IMG/VR virus record: IMGVR_UViG_3300027852_000130
Coordinates: 1-31,137 of that record
DNA length: 31,137 nt
Origin: a virus
Reading direction: 5' to 3' (one strand)
Shown: piece after piece, positions 6,780 through 16,551 of the stretch
How the letters are laid out: each line of letters begins with the position of its first letter
Numbering within the stretch: position 1 is the stretch's first letter
Translations under genes and position numbers: made by a program
Notes under the pieces: model-generated
Databases searched by the model: none
Seen by the model: the letters and a program-made list of their open reading frames with translations, nothing else
Told to the model about the DNA's origin: nothing

Positions 6780-7393
6780 GCCAGGCGCGAACACTCAGCG
6801 CGGTGCCGGAGGGTGGATTGCCGCTGTACCCGGTTGCGACGGACGAACGGCTGACCTCGCATTATTTCGTCGCGCTGCATTTTGACCGCTACCTCAACAG
6901 CTCCTTCCGTGCCAACAGCACCGCAATTGTGCGGCTGTACGGAATGGAACTGTGGCTGCTGGCGCAAAAACAATCTCCGGTCGGAACGCTGCCCGAAAGC
7001 GACCGCGATCTGGCTTTCCTGCTGCACCTCGATCTGGCGGAGTGGCAGGACCTGCGACGGCTCGAATGGGGTCCGCTCTACAAATGGACGCATTGCATCA
7101 CCGATCAGGGCGAGGTGCGCCTGATGCACCCTGTCGTGCTGGAGGTCGTTCAAGATTCCATCGGACGACGCGATGCGCATCGGATGTCCCAGTCGGAGCG
7201 GGCGCAGGCCGCGCGCATCAAGCGGATGAAAGACACGCTGACCAAGCACCAAGCGCATCAGATCGCCCGCAGCCCAGTGGCGATGGAATGGATGGCAGAA
7301 TGGCTGTCCGAGCACCCCATCAAGAACTGGACCGAGGCGTGGGTGATGAAGGCTGCGAACGCCTGGTCTATACGCGATCTGGAGGACCAATGA
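6776..7393 (+). CDS. phage protein resembling DUF1376, replication-position gene
   Basis: A 205-residue protein. The first 120 residues recall DUF1376-type phage proteins: a start strand (SHYFVALHFDRYL), a helix with IVRLYGMELWLLAQKQ, then a LP-x-S-D-x-D-L-A-F-L-L segment and a W-x-x-L stretch. DUF1376-like proteins often sit in phage replication regions. The C-terminal third is basic and helical (RIKRMKDTLTKHQAHQ), possibly for DNA or partner binding. It is the last gene of the coupled operon; the AT-rich motif island follows directly. The family assignment is tentative. Confidence 0.6.
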   Translation: MSQARTLSAVPEGGLPLYPVATDERLTSHYFVALHFDRYLNSSFRANSTAIVRLYGMELWLLAQKQSPVGTLPESDRDLAFLLHLDLAEWQDLRRLEWGPLYKWTHCITDQGEVRLMHPVVLEVVQDSIGRRDAHRMSQSERAQAARIKRMKDTLTKHQAHQIARSPVAMEWMAEWLSEHPIKNWTEAWVMKAANAWSIRDLEDQ

Positions 7394-7426
7394 GGGAAAA
7401 CGCCTGAATTATCAATATCATGTCCA

Positions 7427-7494
7427 TTTCGTGATTTCGTGATTTTACGAAATATTACGTTTTGGAACGTAATTTTCACGTTTGTGTTTCGTGA
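7427..7494. promoter_or_regulatory. AT-rich island with seven CGTRA cores
   Basis: TTTCGTGA occurs three times (7427-7434, 7435-7442 in tandem, 7487-7494). A near copy is inverted (TTACGAAA, 7445-7452), and there is a perfect 8-bp inverted repeat with a 4-base spacer at 7454-7473. Core CGTRA occurs on the plus strand at 7430, 7438, 7468 and 7490, and inverted at 7445, 7455 and 7476. The island is sharply AT-rich against a GC-rich background. It may be an operator array or a replication origin with iterons. Confidence 0.55.
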
Positions 7495-7625
7495 CCACCG
7501 ACAGAGAGAGTCACAAAACAAATACATATGAGAGTACGCGCCGAAACACTGTTTCGGGACGGCGCGCCCTCTCGAACCCACCACGTGATGAAGCAGAGAC
7601 AGGGCTGAGAAAAGGCAGGTGCAGC

Positions 7626-8207
7626 ATGGACAGCATTGAACAGAAGGCGGGCGAGGAAAGAGTGCAGAAGATGCTGATTGAGCCGCTGATGCGCAGGGGA
7701 CTGGCCAAGCCCTCGGCGGTCAGCAAGGCGCAGTTCGAGGACATGAAGGCGGATATCTGCAAGCGCCTCGCCTACATGACCGACGCCAATCTCGCCGCAC
7801 TGGAGGAAACCGTCGCCGCCAATCCGGGCGGCAAGGATAAGGATCGCCTGCCGATCGGGACCGTGGTCCTGGGCTACGCGGCGGATATCCAGCCGCCGGG
7901 TGATACGGCCTCGCCCCTGATGCGCGCCGTGTTCCGCTCACCGATCGGGTTGGAGGCTTTGCGCGATGGGTGGTCCCCTGAATTGCTGGGACTGATCCGT
8001 CGCACCCGCAAGTGGCCGAATGCCTTCGCCCTGACGCAGGCGAAGAAAAGCGCGGATGACCGGGTCCGCGATTTGAGGCGGATGGAGGAAGCTGTCGCCT
8101 CGGGTTTGGAGTTGAGCGCGAGAGATGCCGAGTGGCGCGCCCATCGCCTTGCCGCGCTGCGCAAGTGCGAGGAAATCAGGGACATGGCGATGAGGGCGGA
8201 AGGATGA
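7626..8207 (+). CDS. hypothetical protein preceding the NusG-like gene
   Basis: A 193-residue protein of mainly charged helices. Early segments (EERVQKMLIEPLMRRGL, FEDMKADICKRLAYM) are followed by a glycine-rich stretch and two basic helices near the C-terminus. No membrane segment or known motif is seen. I chose the ATG at 7626, downstream of the AT-rich island, because the frame upstream of it runs through non-coding-looking AT-rich sequence. It overlaps the NusG-like gene by ATGA, so the two probably work together in the switch to late expression. Confidence 0.7.
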   Translation: MDSIEQKAGEERVQKMLIEPLMRRGLAKPSAVSKAQFEDMKADICKRLAYMTDANLAALEETVAANPGGKDKDRLPIGTVVLGYAADIQPPGDTASPLMRAVFRSPIGLEALRDGWSPELLGLIRRTRKWPNAFALTQAKKSADDRVRDLRRMEEAVASGLELSARDAEWRAHRLAALRKCEEIRDMAMRAEG

Positions 8208-8782
8208 GCATGATGGGTGTGATCGAGGCGGACGATCTGGACTGGTATGCGGTCGAGGTCTTTTCGGGCAGAGAGCGCCGGGTCGCGGATGCGGTCGAGG
8301 CGATGGGGTTGATTGCCTACGTCCCGGTATGGCGGCGGCAGGGGCCGATCATTCGCAAGACGGGTCAGCGCAAGATAGTGTCCTCGCCCCTGGTGCCGGG
8401 TTGGGTCTTCGTCGCCTGGCCGCGGGGTTGGGGGGCGGCGTTCCATGCCGTCGGGTCGCATCGCGATGTGCGCGGGTTCGTCGGCGTGGACGGTGTGCCC
8501 AGCCGCATCCGCAGCCGCGTCATGGACGGCTTCATCCGGGATCACGGCAAGGACGGTTTCACGTTGGCCGCGCAGGTCGAGAGCGAAGACGAACGTGTGG
8601 ATCGCATTCGCGCTCAGTTGGGCAAGGTGCACACGGCCCGTGTGGCCGAAGGCAGCTTCATCGGCGCGCAGGTCAAGGTGCGATCGGTCAAGGGAAACCA
8701 CGCGCGGGTCATTATGCAGCTGTTCGGTGGCGACGCCTTCGCAGTGGTGCCTATTGCCTCTCTTGTGCCGGAGGGGACTTGA
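8204..8782 (+). CDS. NusG/RfaH-like transcription antiterminator
   Basis: A 192-residue NusG paralogue. The N-terminal NGN domain (residues about 10-110) starts WYAVEVFSGRERRVADAVE and contains the RNA-polymerase-binding pattern with PLVPGWVFV. A KOW-type segment follows at about 148-190 (FIGAQVKVRSVKGNHARVI). Specialised NusG paralogues such as RfaH and LoaP load on chosen operons and suppress termination. Here the gene ends the early region and is followed at once by a TTGACA box and the late operon, the position of Q in lambda. It is therefore probably the late antiterminator. ATGA-coupled to the previous gene. Confidence 0.85.
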   Translation: MSMMGVIEADDLDWYAVEVFSGRERRVADAVEAMGLIAYVPVWRRQGPIIRKTGQRKIVSSPLVPGWVFVAWPRGWGAAFHAVGSHRDVRGFVGVDGVPSRIRSRVMDGFIRDHGKDGFTLAAQVESEDERVDRIRAQLGKVHTARVAEGSFIGAQVKVRSVKGNHARVIMQLFGGDAFAVVPIASLVPEGT

Positions 8783-8807
8783 CAGGATCGGGGCAGGGGT
8801 CTTACCG
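8779..8807 (+). promoter_or_regulatory. candidate late promoter
   Basis: A consensus -35, TTGACA, at 8779-8784 overlaps the stop of the NusG-like gene. Possible -10 boxes are TTACCG (17-bp spacer) or TACCGA (18-bp spacer), both weak, as is common for activated phage late promoters. It reads toward the terminase about 250 bp away. Confidence 0.4.
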
Positions 8808-9057
8808 ATTGGAACAGGACGACCGCTGATCCCTGCTCTGAGAAGCATATGGCGATCCTTTACGATCTGACGCCCGGTGGGAAAGTCGAGATCGCAAAGT
8901 GCGACGCTGTGGTCCGAACGCCCCCGATGACGACCCCCCCCTTCAACGGGTCCTTCCTTTGCCCAGCATATATGCGGGGACATCATGCGCTCATGTTCCG
9001 TGGTGCTTAACTATTCTGCGGTGCCTTAACTTCGCAATCTGACTTTCCGGAGGTGTC
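8783..9057. other. leader before terminase, candidate cos region
   Basis: This 275-bp interval is the longest gap in the plus-strand genes and lies directly before terS, where lambdoid phages carry cos. It holds a run of eight C (8934-8941), a hairpin-forming GGGACAT/ATGTTCC pair around 8976-9000, and imperfect direct repeats GGTGCTTAACT and GGTGCCTTAACT (about 9002 and 9021) that could be terminase small-subunit sites. No cohesive-end sequence can be proven. Confidence 0.35.
8849..9010 (+). CDS. possible 53-residue ORF in the late leader
   Basis: An open frame starts MAILYDLTPGGKVEIAK and contains two Cys. GAGAAG upstream is a weak ribosome-binding site. It spans an eight-C run and lies in the presumed cos leader, so it may be chance. 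Not recognised. Confidence 0.25.
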   Translation: MAILYDLTPGGKVEIAKCDAVVRTPPMTTPPFNGSFLCPAYMRGHHALMFRGA

Positions 9058-9666
9058 ATGTCCGCCACGGCCACAGAAATTTCCAAAGCACTCAGCCTTA
9101 GCAAACCGCGCATCAGTCAGCTGACCAGCGACGGCACCCTCGACGGGTGTTTTGTCGGGACCGGGCGCGGACGGCGGTATGATCTGCAGAAGGTGGCTGA
9201 GCGGCTCGACCACAAGCTCGACCCCGGCCAGTCACTGGGACATGGCGCAGCGCGTAAGAAAGCGACGCGGGATCTGCGCCAGGATGATTCCCCGCGGGAC
9301 AACGGCGAGACCGACCAGCCACCTTCGCAAACCGACGACCGGTATCAGAATGCCCGGATCACCGCTCTCGAAGAACGCAACAGGGAGCAGCAACGCAAGA
9401 ACGCACTGGCCGACGGGACCTACGTTCTCGCCTCCGAGGTCGCACGGGAAGTGCAGACGCAGATGGCGGCGGAAATCGCGGCGATAGATTCCATGCTCGG
9501 CGATGCCGCCCGCGCTGTCGCGGATGAATTCCAGATCAACGCCGGAGAGGTCCGCAAGGTCCTGCGCGATACCTGGCGCCTGCATCGGCAACGTCGTGAG
9601 CGGATCAAGGGTGAGCAATCTGACGCCGCTCAGCTGACGGAGGATGAACAGGAGGCGAATATCTGA
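9058..9666 (+). CDS. terminase small subunit (Nu1-like)
   Basis: A 202-residue DNA-packaging protein. An N-terminal winged helix (residues about 5-45, ISKALSLSKPRISQLTSDGTL then a GRGRRYDL wing) resembles lambda gpNu1 (181 residues), which binds cos. A polar linker follows, then a coiled-coil-like helix (about 100-150) and a basic C-terminus for binding the large subunit. A GGAGG ribosome-binding site at 9048-9052 fixes the start. The stop overlaps the large-subunit start (TGATG). Confidence 0.85.
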   Translation: MSATATEISKALSLSKPRISQLTSDGTLDGCFVGTGRGRRYDLQKVAERLDHKLDPGQSLGHGAARKKATRDLRQDDSPRDNGETDQPPSQTDDRYQNARITALEERNREQQRKNALADGTYVLASEVAREVQTQMAAEIAAIDSMLGDAARAVADEFQINAGEVRKVLRDTWRLHRQRRERIKGEQSDAAQLTEDEQEANI

Positions 9667-11645
9667 TGACCTCTCTCACACCTGCCGCCGGCATCGTTGC
9701 GCAATCGATCGCAACTGCAATGGCCCCGCCACCGCCGCCGGACATAACCAGATGGTGTGAGGAGAATCTCATCTTCGACGAAACCTCGGCAATGCCGGGG
9801 CCTTTTCGCATTGATCGCTTTCCCTTCCTTCGTGAAGTCCACGAGGTCCTGTCGCCCGAACATCCCGCGCGCGAGGTCAGCGTGCGCGGCAGCGCCCAAT
9901 GGGGAAAGACGGAATCGGTCATCAATCCCACAATCGGGGCGTGGCATGAGTACACGACGCTGAACAGCCTGATCGTGCATCCTACGTCTGCGGCTGCACT
10001 GGAATGGGCGCGACGAAAATTCGGTCCCCTGCGCAGGGCGGCAAAGTCGCTGCGCAAAATCTTCGGACGCAACGCAAATGCGACGGATTCGCTCAGCAAT
10101 ATCGAGACGGCAGATCAGACCGGCAGCATCAAGATCACCTCTTCCGGGTCACCCTCGGACCTGACGGGAAACACGCGGCGGCTGGTCATCATGGATGACC
10201 TGTCAAAATTCGAGATGAACCCTCTGGGCGATCCGGAAGAGCTGGCCGCCAGTCGCGCGTCGAGCTTTCAGGATGGCTGCAAGATCGTTCGCGTCTCGAC
10301 GGCGATGATCAAGGGCACATGCCGGATCACAAATGCTTTCGAGCGGTCGGATCAGCGGTTCTTCGAGCTGCCTTGCCCACATTGCGATCACTACCACGCG
10401 CTGGAATGGGAAAATTTTGTCGGGAATATCGAGCCGGAAAATCTGTCCGCGGCGCATTTCACCTGTCCAGCCTGTCATGAGGCAATACAGCACAAGCACA
10501 AGCCCGTGATGCTGGCGCGCGGCAGATGGACTGCTCGCAATCCCAAAGGCGACCATCCCGGCTTTCACCTATGGCGGGCATACGCACCGCAGCGTGATTG
10601 GGAAAGTATCGCACGCGACTATGCTCGCGTCATGGGATGGTCGCGCGGCGGCGACGGGACCGGCGAGGCTGCGGTCGTGCAGGCGGAATCGGAGCAGACC
10701 TTCTGGAACGACGTGCTGGGTCTGCCCTATGAGATGTCGAGCGGAGGAATGGACTGGAAGAGCATCCAGACCCGTGCGGAGGCCGAGGACGCCGACGCGC
10801 TGGACCGCAGTGTGGTCCCGGCCGGCGGGGTCATACTGACCGGAGGGGTCGATTGTCAGGACGACCGGACGGAGCTGGTCGTGATGGCATGGGGCCGGAA
10901 CATGAGACGGCACGCGATGCTGCATGTCGTGATCCCGCATCCGATCACCGATCCGCAGGCAGGCGCCGCTTTGGACGCCTATCTGGACCAGTCATGGAAA
11001 ACGGGCGCAGGTCTGCCCCTGAAGCTGGACATGCTGGCGATCGATGAGGGCAGCTTCACGCAGGCGGTACGCGATTGGGCGTATCGGCATCCCTGGTCAC
11101 GGGTGATCACGGTCAAGGGTGGCAGCTCCGCGAATGCGCAGACCCTGCTGCCGATGACTTTCCGCACGAAATCCGATGGCCGCAAGGCGCGGCGGAAAAG
11201 AGGACAGAAGGCCAGCTGGATGCTGAATGTCAGTCGGCTGAAAGGGGATTTGTACGCGGTCCTACCGATCGAGGATCCAGAAGCGCGGGGCTATGTCAGT
11301 TTCGCAAAGGGGATGGGCGATGAGTTCTATCGCCAATTCTGCTCCGAGAAGCGGGTCACGGCGCGTGACCGCTACGGCGTCATGCAATCGAAATGGGTAC
11401 TGGTCGAGCCGACCCGCCGGAACGAGGTTCTGGACTGTCAAAACTACGCCTGCGCCGCTGCGCTGCGCAAAGGCTGGGTCTCGATGACCGATGCACAATG
11501 GGATGCGATCGAGGCAGCCCAATCGAAGATCCCGGTCGAGGGACAGAACGACCTATTCGACCTCGCACTATCCCCGGTGCCGGAGGCCGCGCCAAAGGCC
11601 AAAGCTGCAACAAAGACCTACAAGAATTGGACATTTCCGAAATGA
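9666..11645 (+). CDS. terminase large subunit (lambda gpA family)
   Basis: A 659-residue GpA-type terminase (lambda gpA is 641). It is the motor and nuclease that cuts and packages DNA. The Walker A variant is GSAQWGKTE with K81, and the Walker B is VIMDDLSKF with D177-D178. A Cys-rich segment, CPHCDHYH followed by CPACHE, looks like the zinc-finger insert of this family. The C-terminal nuclease begins around GGVDCQDDRTEL. It starts at 9666, overlapping the small-subunit stop. A GpA-type enzyme implies cos packaging. Confidence 0.95.
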   Translation: MTSLTPAAGIVAQSIATAMAPPPPPDITRWCEENLIFDETSAMPGPFRIDRFPFLREVHEVLSPEHPAREVSVRGSAQWGKTESVINPTIGAWHEYTTLNSLIVHPTSAAALEWARRKFGPLRRAAKSLRKIFGRNANATDSLSNIETADQTGSIKITSSGSPSDLTGNTRRLVIMDDLSKFEMNPLGDPEELAASRASSFQDGCKIVRVSTAMIKGTCRITNAFERSDQRFFELPCPHCDHYHALEWENFVGNIEPENLSAAHFTCPACHEAIQHKHKPVMLARGRWTARNPKGDHPGFHLWRAYAPQRDWESIARDYARVMGWSRGGDGTGEAAVVQAESEQTFWNDVLGLPYEMSSGGMDWKSIQTRAEAEDADALDRSVVPAGGVILTGGVDCQDDRTELVVMAWGRNMRRHAMLHVVIPHPITDPQAGAALDAYLDQSWKTGAGLPLKLDMLAIDEGSFTQAVRDWAYRHPWSRVITVKGGSSANAQTLLPMTFRTKSDGRKARRKRGQKASWMLNVSRLKGDLYAVLPIEDPEARGYVSFAKGMGDEFYRQFCSEKRVTARDRYGVMQSKWVLVEPTRRNEVLDCQNYACAAALRKGWVSMTDAQWDAIEAAQSKIPVEGQNDLFDLALSPVPEAAPKAKAATKTYKNWTFPK

Positions 11646-14938: not shown

Positions 14939-14965
14939 CACACTCGCACCGCCTTGGTGCGTGTG
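14939..14965 (+). terminator. hairpin after the protease/scaffold gene
   Basis: CGCACC (14945-14950) pairs with GGTGCG (14956-14961), loop GCCTT. An outer CACA/TGTG pair (14939-14942 with 14962-14965) extends it past a 2-base bulge. There is no T run, so it may process or protect RNA rather than terminate. A second GCGCGC hairpin lies at 14980-14999. Confidence 0.4.
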
Positions 14966-15030
14966 ACCCGATAGCCGCCGCGCGCCGGTTCCTGCGCGCA
15001 CACCCACCCACATCGATAATGGAGGCCATC

Positions 15031-15405
15031 ATGGTCACGAAAACCGAGGGCACGCGGATCGACGATCTGGTCCTGTTCGAAGAGGACGACTTCTATTCGC
15101 GCGAAGTCGTCACCATTGCCAGCGGGGCCGATCTGTCGATCGGTGCCGTACTGGGCGTGGTCACTGCAACCGGGAAATATGTCTCGTCCGACCCGACGGC
15201 GACGGACGGGTCGCAGACACCTGTTGCGGTGCTGATCCGCGATGCGAAGGCCGCCAGCGCGGATGTCACTGACGCACTGGTCATTGCCCGTCACGCGCGC
15301 CTGATCCGCTCCGCATTGGTCTTTGACGATGCGATTGATGACAGCACCAAGCGGGCGACGGCGGTCGCAGCCCTGAAGGCGCGTGGCATTCTGACGGACG
15401 TCTGA
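15031..15405 (+). CDS. head decoration protein (gpD-like)
   Basis: A 124-residue protein (lambda gpD is 110) that stabilises the expanded head as trimers. The family pattern is visible: an S/G-A-x-L-x-x-G-A-V-L-G strand pair, then P-V-A-V-L and a final ALKARGI-like helix. I chose the ATG at 15031 because GGAGG (15021-15025) precedes it at the right distance; an ATG four codons upstream has no site. It is flanked by stable hairpins, fitting high expression. Confidence 0.85.
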   Translation: MVTKTEGTRIDDLVLFEEDDFYSREVVTIASGADLSIGAVLGVVTATGKYVSSDPTATDGSQTPVAVLIRDAKAASADVTDALVIARHARLIRSALVFDDAIDDSTKRATAVAALKARGILTDV

Positions 15406-15416
15406 TCCTCTCCGGT

Positions 15417-15432
15417 CGCGGCAGAGGCCGCG
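15417..15432 (+). other. hairpin between gpD and gpE genes
   Basis: CGCGGC (15417-15422) and GCCGCG (15427-15432) form a perfect 6-bp stem with an AGAG loop. There is no T run. It lies 54 bases before the capsid start. Confidence 0.4.
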
Positions 15433-15485
15433 CCCGGTTTCACCTGAATGGGCCTGCACCAGCGGGCGAACAAAAGGAGCCAGTC

Positions 15486-16511
15486 ATGGCACAATTGGAT
15501 ATCATCGCCGGTGACGGCTTCTCGACCCGTGAACTTTCGGACGCGATCTCGATCGTTCCGAACCAGTGGGGTCGCATCGGCGAGATGGGGCTGTTCACCC
15601 CGAAGCCGCTGCGCACCGCCGAATTCTCGATCGAGGCGAAGGGGGGCTTCCTGCAGTTGATCCAGTCCTCGCAGCGGGGCACCAACCTGCCGGGACGCCA
15701 GCGTGGCAAGCGCGCCTTGCACACCTTCCGCACCGAGCGCTTCGGGCTGGAGGGGCGCGTCACGGCGGAGGATATCGCTGCCATCCGCGCCTTCGGCAGC
15801 GAGACCGAGTTGATGCAGGTCCAGGACGTGATCAACGATGAGCTGGTCGAATTGCGGGCATCGCTGGACATCACCCGCGAATGGCTGCGCGCCACCGCAT
15901 TGCAGGGTCTGGTCAAGGACGCGGACGGCACCACGATCCTCGATCTGCACAGCGCGTTCGGGATCACGAAGAAAAGCGTCGATTTCACCTTCGCGACCAG
16001 CGGTACTGATACGGCAGGCAAGGCGCGTTCGGTCAAGCGGCACATCGAGCAGAACCTGCTGGGTGATGTGATGACCGGCGCTCACGTCCTGTGCTCCCCC
16101 GAATTCTGGGATGAGATGATGGAGGACGAAGCGTTCAAGCGGGCCTACGACTTCTACATGGGTGTCAACCCCATGCGCGATGATGTCCGCAAGGGCTTCG
16201 ACTGGCAGGGTCTGACCTGGGAGGAATATCTGGGTGAGGCGAGTGTGCCCAATGAGGATGGCACCATGACGATCCGGCGGTTCGTCCCGCAGGGTGAGGC
16301 CTTCGCGTTCCCCGTGGGCACGCGCAACACCTTCCGCCAGTACAACTCCCCCGCCGATTTCATCGAGACCGTGAATCAGCCGGGCATGGAATACTACGCG
16401 AAGGCCACGCCCGACCCCAAGGGCCGGTATGTCGATATCGACGCGCTCATGCAAACGTTGCCGATCTGCATGCGCCCCGGCGCGACGGTGCGTCTGCACT
16501 CCTCCAACTGA
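15486..16511 (+). CDS. major capsid protein (gpE family)
   Basis: A 341-residue major coat protein, exactly the length of lambda gpE, with the HK97-type fold of this family. Seen in the sequence: an N-terminal arm (ISIVPNQWGRIGEMGLF), a long helix (ITREWLRATALQGLVKDADG region), a P-EFWDEMM segment and a C-terminal Y-A-K-x-x-P-D-P-K-G-R-x-V typical of gpE proteins. AAGGAG at 15474-15479 gives a strong start, and a 10-bp hairpin follows the stop. Confidence 0.95.
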   Translation: MAQLDIIAGDGFSTRELSDAISIVPNQWGRIGEMGLFTPKPLRTAEFSIEAKGGFLQLIQSSQRGTNLPGRQRGKRALHTFRTERFGLEGRVTAEDIAAIRAFGSETELMQVQDVINDELVELRASLDITREWLRATALQGLVKDADGTTILDLHSAFGITKKSVDFTFATSGTDTAGKARSVKRHIEQNLLGDVMTGAHVLCSPEFWDEMMEDEAFKRAYDFYMGVNPMRDDVRKGFDWQGLTWEEYLGEASVPNEDGTMTIRRFVPQGEAFAFPVGTRNTFRQYNSPADFIETVNQPGMEYYAKATPDPKGRYVDIDALMQTLPICMRPGATVRLHSSN

Positions 16512-16526
16512 GCGCGTTTGCCACAC

Positions 16527-16551
16527 GGCGCGGGGTGATGCCTCGCGCCGA
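16527..16551 (+). terminator. very stable hairpin after the capsid gene
   Basis: CGGCGCGGGG (16527-16536) pairs with CCTCGCGCCG (16542-16551): ten pairs including one G-U, loop TGATG. Only ACTTTCCC follows, so termination would be partial; it may protect the capsid mRNA end. Confidence 0.5.

Follow-up and report, generated by a model that had tools for sequence, protein, structure and literature searches.

A NusG paralog encoded just ahead of the late operon likely serves as a processive antiterminator that is loaded at the late leader, where it would replace the Q protein of lambda. The evidence for this is comparative only and no experiment supports it. It comes from a window comprising the whole of a 31,137-nt stretch of DNA from a bacterial virus (IMG/VR record IMGVR_UViG_3300027852_000130, positions 1 to 31,137) and from its relatives. 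The features of the window on which the argument draws are the following.

7626 to 8207, plus strand: the "UP" gene, conserved and of unknown function, whose stop overlaps the start of the NGN gene
8204 to 8782, plus strand: the NGN-KOW NusG paralog of 192 aa, proposed late antiterminator (ATG at 8204, TGA stop at 8780-8782)
8779 to 8808, plus strand: proposed late promoter in a conserved layout, TTGACA (8779-8784), 18 nt, TACCGA (8803-8808)
8814 to 8914, plus strand: leader RNA, a divergent member of the G1 group close to that of sister phage L156, with its start inferred
8817 to 8836, plus strand: 5' leader motif GGACGACCGCTGATCCCTGC, candidate loading element, at about +3 of the predicted transcript
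8898 to 8914, plus strand: 3' leader motif AGTGCGACGCTGTGG, a motif occurring mostly in NGN leaders
8903 to 8977, plus strand: C-rich, G-poor stretch after the leader, with 24-26 C versus 12-14 G per 60 nt
8946 to 8979, plus strand: inferred cos-like conserved element ACGGGTCCTTCC...ATATATGCGGGG
9058 to 9666, plus strand: terminase small subunit TerS, first gene of the late operon (PHROG_57, E 1e-14)
9666 to 11645, plus strand: terminase large subunit TerL (PHROG_15, E 2e-148)

The protein is a member of the NusG superfamily, with an NGN domain followed by a KOW beta barrel. Its match to Pfam NusG (PF02357) scores 43.7 bits, where the cut-off is 22.2 (E 4e-11), and over residues 8-185, nearly its full length, it matches the PHROG_6386 "transcription antiterminator" profile (E 8e-15). 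A profile built from 26 relatives matches NusG structures in the PDB across both domains (best 3e-21, RfaH 4e-8). The AlphaFold2 model (mean pLDDT 86.9) shows an NGN fold together with a KOW barrel of five strands, and its pTM of 0.56 leaves the orientation of the domains uncertain. Foldseek matches of this model include NusG, RfaH-ops complexes, and a NusG-RNA complex. The fold can be considered established. A separate, second NusG-like gene is present in the host genomes of the relatives.

Membership in a named subfamily was tested by score. The protein falls below the equivalog cut-offs of housekeeping NusG (TIGR00922, 34.8 bits against 135.7) and RfaH (TIGR01955, 29.1 bits against 144.5), and below the subfamily cut-offs of LoaP (NF033641, 22.9 bits against 125) and UpxY (NF033644, 42.1 bits against 100), the last being the top match among the named NCBIfam subfamilies. 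Since these cut-offs were not met, we do not file the protein as RfaH or LoaP; it belongs to neither and is a NusG-superfamily, PHROG_6386 protein. The AlphaFold2 model has no RfaH-like helical C-terminal domain (CTD) and shows a confident beta barrel instead, which is a prediction only. The initial annotation had stated that the last early gene encodes an NGN-KOW protein, and this held on the Pfam, PHROG, and AlphaFold2 results and on the replication-like and UP genes found upstream. It had also proposed RfaH/LoaP-like late control, of which subfamily membership failed and LoaP-like working is kept as an inference. That the paralog acts in a LoaP-like way while filling the role of Q is likely by analogy, its function being inferred without experiment. 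Type-B NGN proteins (L029, L074-L076, L079, L080, and others) carry roughly 35 additional residues early in the NGN domain, with a conserved GTG and basic residues; this insert is missing from the window protein and from type-A proteins.

A replication-like gene and the conserved UP gene stand 5' of the NGN gene in the window, and past TerL, head and tail genes continue in the same orientation to beyond 28.5 kb. We fetched 80 loci as relatives of TerL. Besides the window and its copies, 12 loci have an NGN gene on the same strand upstream of TerL, and the gene was present in 13 of the 50 whole records. The gene order runs from a replication-like gene through UP to NGN, which starts at the UP stop, and then, past a minor tail gene in some loci, to TerS and TerL; the regions fetched around the further members named below keep it wherever TerL is recognizable. 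The position of the NGN gene is conserved in about 30 related alphaproteobacterial phages and prophages. Further members were found in IMG/VR and in GTDB species genomes (Sulfitobacter, Ruegeria, Phaeobacter, Thioclava, Camelimonas, and others). With a score cut chosen so that the hosts' own NusG drops out, sampled whole genomes contained NGN members in 6 of 395 cases in one family and 5 of 397 in one order.

The UP gene has no match in Pfam or PHROG, and its profile matches more than 30 of the fetched TerL-related loci, NGN present or not. It precedes the late-regulator slot in phages with and without NGN alike and belongs to no known family. The window's sister prophage L141 has, at 6945-7673, 8695-9303, and 10838-10983, two tandem NGN genes, perhaps a broken third, and two copies of the leader. 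In the early region of the window, a strong terminator-like hairpin, CCCCGCTGGTGTGGGGCGCACCGGCGGGG and then CTTTTTC (4456-4484, plus strand, about -25 kcal/mol), sits at the end of the ORF at 3488-4507, where there is also a weak, sub-threshold Rfam match to suhB/mmgR.

An annotated antitermination gene occupies the same place in Sinorhizobium phages phi2LM21 and phi3LM21, Rhizobium phage vB_RleM_PPF1, and Nostoc phage Nsp-JY10, and the annotation names NusG in the first three. In those three the gene has the same position before the terminase, with related leader motifs and a terminator; it exists there as annotation only, and the layout apparently has not been interpreted. The text of the LM21 paper mentions neither NusG nor antitermination. 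The PPF1 record has its terminase at the left end and its NGN gene near the right end, resembling the placement of lambda A and Q. These annotated phages emerged only with TerL and phi2LM21's own protein as queries. A tblastn search of phage and plasmid records with the window protein gave no matches because this protein is too divergent, and a type-B paralog used as the query likewise gave none.

It is conceivable, though unlikely, that the paralog alters host transcription, either by competing with host NusG or by changing Rho termination, and that its position is incidental. NGN proteins can act genome-wide in trans, and the 2.5-4 kb lying between gene and leader in some loci would also be compatible with such a role. 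Against this, the gene's position and the layout persist across phages whose TerL proteins are only about 34% identical, and relatives fill the slot with other genes bearing their own promoter and terminator. We favor late antitermination as the function.

The promoter proposed for the late operon begins within the NGN gene, its TTGACA (8779-8784) overlapping the stop codon. TACCGA (8803-8808) is a poor sigma-70 -10, and a scan for consensus promoters lists none at 8779-8808. Taken alone, the TTGACA of the window is weak evidence, and the promoter reading is strengthened by comparative enrichment. We compared the DNA 3' of the NGN stop in 30 loci, using 28 non-redundant ones for enrichment counts. 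TTGAC lies within -40 to +80 of the NGN stop in 23 of the 28, versus 8.8% of random windows and 15% of other gene stops. The pattern TTGACA/G-N17/18-TA... is conserved after NGN genes, and the TGA stop of most type-A loci shares the window's exact overlap with TTGAC.

In most NGN loci, this TTGAC-type promoter is followed by a structured leader RNA of 100-190 nt. Three leader groups were aligned, and all of them show compensatory base changes, with 7 (A2), 11 (A3), and 19 (A4) RNAalifold pairs changed on both sides. The covariation score was never reached by 500 shuffles in A2, A3, or A4; the count of double-changed pairs was never reached in A3 or A4 and was reached by 55 of 500 shuffles in A2. 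Structures slid along the alignment score far lower than the actual ones. As it was these alignments that yielded the structures, the paired-cell percentage is biased towards them. Rfam gave no leader match at gathering score in eight loci, and on the window it gave sub-threshold matches only, none of them within the leader. Conservation of promoter and leader, and covariation in the leaders of relatives, are results of the comparison rather than inferences from it.

When 98 loci (1.23 Mb) were searched with covariance models R1 and R2, every match with E <0.01 fell downstream of an NGN gene on the same strand, with none below that value in the NGN-less relatives among these loci. L100 and L141 were outside the training set of the models. 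Two loci were found by the leader DNA pattern alone, and both carry an NGN gene. Strong leader matches occur with an NGN gene in four of the 395 family genomes, and the strong matches of the genome screen are training sequences or identical copies. Co-inheritance of neighboring genes by itself accounts for part of the association between NGN gene and leader. In L074, L100, and L158, kilobases of apparently inserted DNA part the NGN gene from promoter and leader, with the gene and the leader region both kept, so the leader is not merely the 3' end of the NGN gene. Two R1 matches without a nearby NGN gene in the family genomes (E 8.6e-9 and 1.2e-5) are unexplained. Leader-model matches lacking a nearby NGN gene lie in L162 (1501-1638, minus strand) and L163 (1501-1602, plus strand); one is antisense to a coding gene and one resembles the 5' half of G1, and neither has an explanation.

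Two leader motifs were counted over 3.5 Mb on both strands. For the 5' motif, GGAYGAnC-N3-8-GRTCC(C), 13 of 20 distinct occurrences lie just 3' of NGN genes, and for the 3' motif, AGTGCGA..GC..TG, 8 of 9 are in NGN leaders; as both motifs were drawn from some of the same loci, these counts are descriptive. The leader RNAs vary among groups, and a single shared recognition element has not been shown. The main rival to RNA-guided loading, which remains possible, is that the paralog is recruited in the manner of ops by a DNA element, with the 5' motif pausing polymerase and being read in the non-template strand while the remainder of the leader folds for another reason. In favor of this, no other element is shared as widely as the 5' motif, which stands at about +3 and can form a small hairpin, and RfaH-ops complexes are among the structural matches. 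Against it are the extensive covariation along the whole leader, which points to RNA structure, the divergence of G2 leaders in the 5' motif, and the lack of a predicted RfaH-type helical CTD. We infer RNA-guided loading from a leader with LoaP-type anatomy in the position of Q; both direct recognition of the leader and recognition as RNA rather than DNA are inferences.

A strong intrinsic terminator was found within 300 nt in 15 of the 28 NGN loci versus 9% of random windows, mostly at +100..164 in type A and at +197..262 in type B, and 13 of the 28 lack a strong terminator by the criterion used. A simple bulge-free terminator finder missed most terminators and was replaced. Within the Rhodobacteraceae set, a strong intrinsic terminator comes after the leader in about half of the loci; the four annotated outgroup phages all have one, each leader ending in it within +172..+207.

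The window's own leader is less easily placed. From TTGACA to CGCTGTGG (8914), where the similarity ends, it closely resembles the leader of the sister phage L156/L157, and the NGN proteins of the two are 74% identical. The G1 covariance model R1 gives L156 21 bits and the window leader only 5 bits. We rejected the direct R1 match to the window as not significant, and membership of its leader in the family is inferred solely through the bridge of L156. That this divergent leader functions like those of the relatives is likewise an inference. No convincing intrinsic terminator was found 3' of it. The C-rich stretch at 8903-8977 could be a region of Rho-dependent termination, which is speculation on our part. 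The inferred cos-like element has the form GGGTCCYTCC-N-TATACGGGG, which the window has in common with several relatives just 5' of TerS.

In the mechanism we propose, the late promoter overlapping the NGN stop would fire into a 100-190-nt leader with a defined RNA fold. Without the paralog, most transcripts would end at the leader terminator, an intrinsic one in about half of the relatives; in the window, RNA polymerase might be stopped by Rho rather than by a hairpin. Recruitment of the paralog would take place during emergence of the leader and would most likely depend on elements of the nascent RNA, namely the GGAYGAnC...GRTCCCTGC hairpin at the 5' end near +1 and hairpins further downstream. 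The paralog would then bind the NusG site on RNA polymerase and render it terminator-resistant, and the outcome would be processive transcription of the head and tail operon of about 20 kb. The antitermination activity itself is inferred.

This arrangement resembles Q-pR'-6S-tR' of lambda, with a last early gene, an adjacent late promoter, a short leader, a terminator (in relatives), and the late operon. Q modifies RNA polymerase near the late promoter. The likeness is one of layout and not of homology: the regulator directly before late promoter and terminase is present, and the terminator at the leader end is found in 15 of 28 NGN loci and the four annotated phages, with none convincing in the window. 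Unlike in lambda, the protein is a NusG paralog and not Q, and the leader is a conserved structured RNA. Antitermination by NusG paralogs is known from bacterial and plasmid operons. LoaP binds to a hairpin in the leader RNA and thereby polymerase gets past a NusA-dependent terminator (PMC12691694), and in the dfn leader of Bacillus velezensis, as here, a NusG paralog is combined with a leader hairpin and an intrinsic terminator before a very long operon, all determinants seemingly lying within the leader (PMC12691694). This layout is seen in our relatives, and a clear terminator is not seen in the window. LoaP differs in being a host gene for antibiotic operons with a UNCG hairpin, whereas the phage leader is larger and different. 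RfaH/ops and UpxY, the best NCBIfam match, share the NGN fold and the control of long operons; the window protein differs from them in falling below all subfamily cut-offs and in having no predicted helical CTD. GafZ of the Caulobacter GTA cluster also places an alphaproteobacterial phage-like late cluster under antitermination (PMC11150451). It apparently acts together with host NusG, and binding between -35 and -10, as for Q, has been proposed for it (PMC11150451), whereas here the phage itself supplies the NusG paralog.

In NGN-less relatives, the UP gene is followed by unrelated slot families, one matching PHROG_9306 (function unknown) and the other without a clear match. Their promoter regions differ from those of NGN loci, and a terminator lies close behind the slot gene in 10 of 12, starting at +43..+71. 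The clearest comparison is between L029, which has NGN, and L027, which has PHROG_9306. These are 88.5% identical over UP to the start of the slot gene and 97% identical onward from just before the cos-like element, and between these flanks they differ in regulator, promoter, and leader, plus a small extra gene in L027. In this one pair, regulator, promoter, and leader have been exchanged as a single block, a natural swap.

This swap bears on another explanation, which we consider unlikely, in which the leader acts alone on polymerase, as HK022 put does, or serves as a regulatory RNA in its own right, the paralog having some other job such as general elongation. The leaders are long and well structured, and RNA binding by the protein has not been shown. 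Against this idea, leader and NGN were exchanged together in L029/L027, confident leader matches occur only with NGN among the 98 loci, and a protein-independent leader would be expected beside other slot genes too. We continue to prefer joint action of paralog and leader. A bolder reading, toward which we lean without great confidence, is that of a modular late switch in alphaproteobacterial phages, exchanged as a cassette of regulator, promoter, leader, and terminator, one type being an RNA-guided NusG antiterminator in the role of Q with a new leader RNA family as its loading site, in Rhodobacterales, Rhizobiales, and relatives.

The remaining proposals of the initial annotation fared unevenly. 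A consensus TTGACA overlapping the stop with the late operon following was confirmed, with a weak -10 and comparative support for the promoter. Control of the late operon by a NusG paralog in the place of Q is supported comparatively, by synteny, promoter, leader, terminators, swap, and annotated phages, with function inferred. Hairpins within the late operon as its targets found no support, the region 14939-16551 not being above background and having no strong terminator. No ops-like element had been seen and recruitment was left unsettled; the conserved leader starting near +1 is now a candidate, its recognition inferred.

NusG annotations in phages are already known, and rfaH-like genes on prophages have been noted in passing only (PMC7593976). 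In the open-access literature searched, we found no phage NusG paralog tied to late control, leader RNA, or cassette exchange, and these links are apparently new. If correct, a NusG paralog as late master switch of a phage joins the Q and RfaH/LoaP strategies of antitermination, and a function is assigned to a phage gene family that has been annotated and not interpreted. Leaders outside Rfam, clear covariation, and a natural swap open nascent-RNA loading to direct tests in Roseobacter and Rhizobium hosts that can be cultured. Two other unknown slot gene families would also be predicted to be late regulators.

As to those families, slot protein (ii) was considered as a Q homolog and rejected, since its sequence matched nothing in the PDB and its model was weak, with no fold match. 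Slot family (iii) gave no convincing match either. In its phages (L024, L023, L010, L056) no good TTGACA promoter follows the slot gene, and GCTTA repeats stand ahead of a short leader in several of them, which together suggest a late promoter of the activator type.
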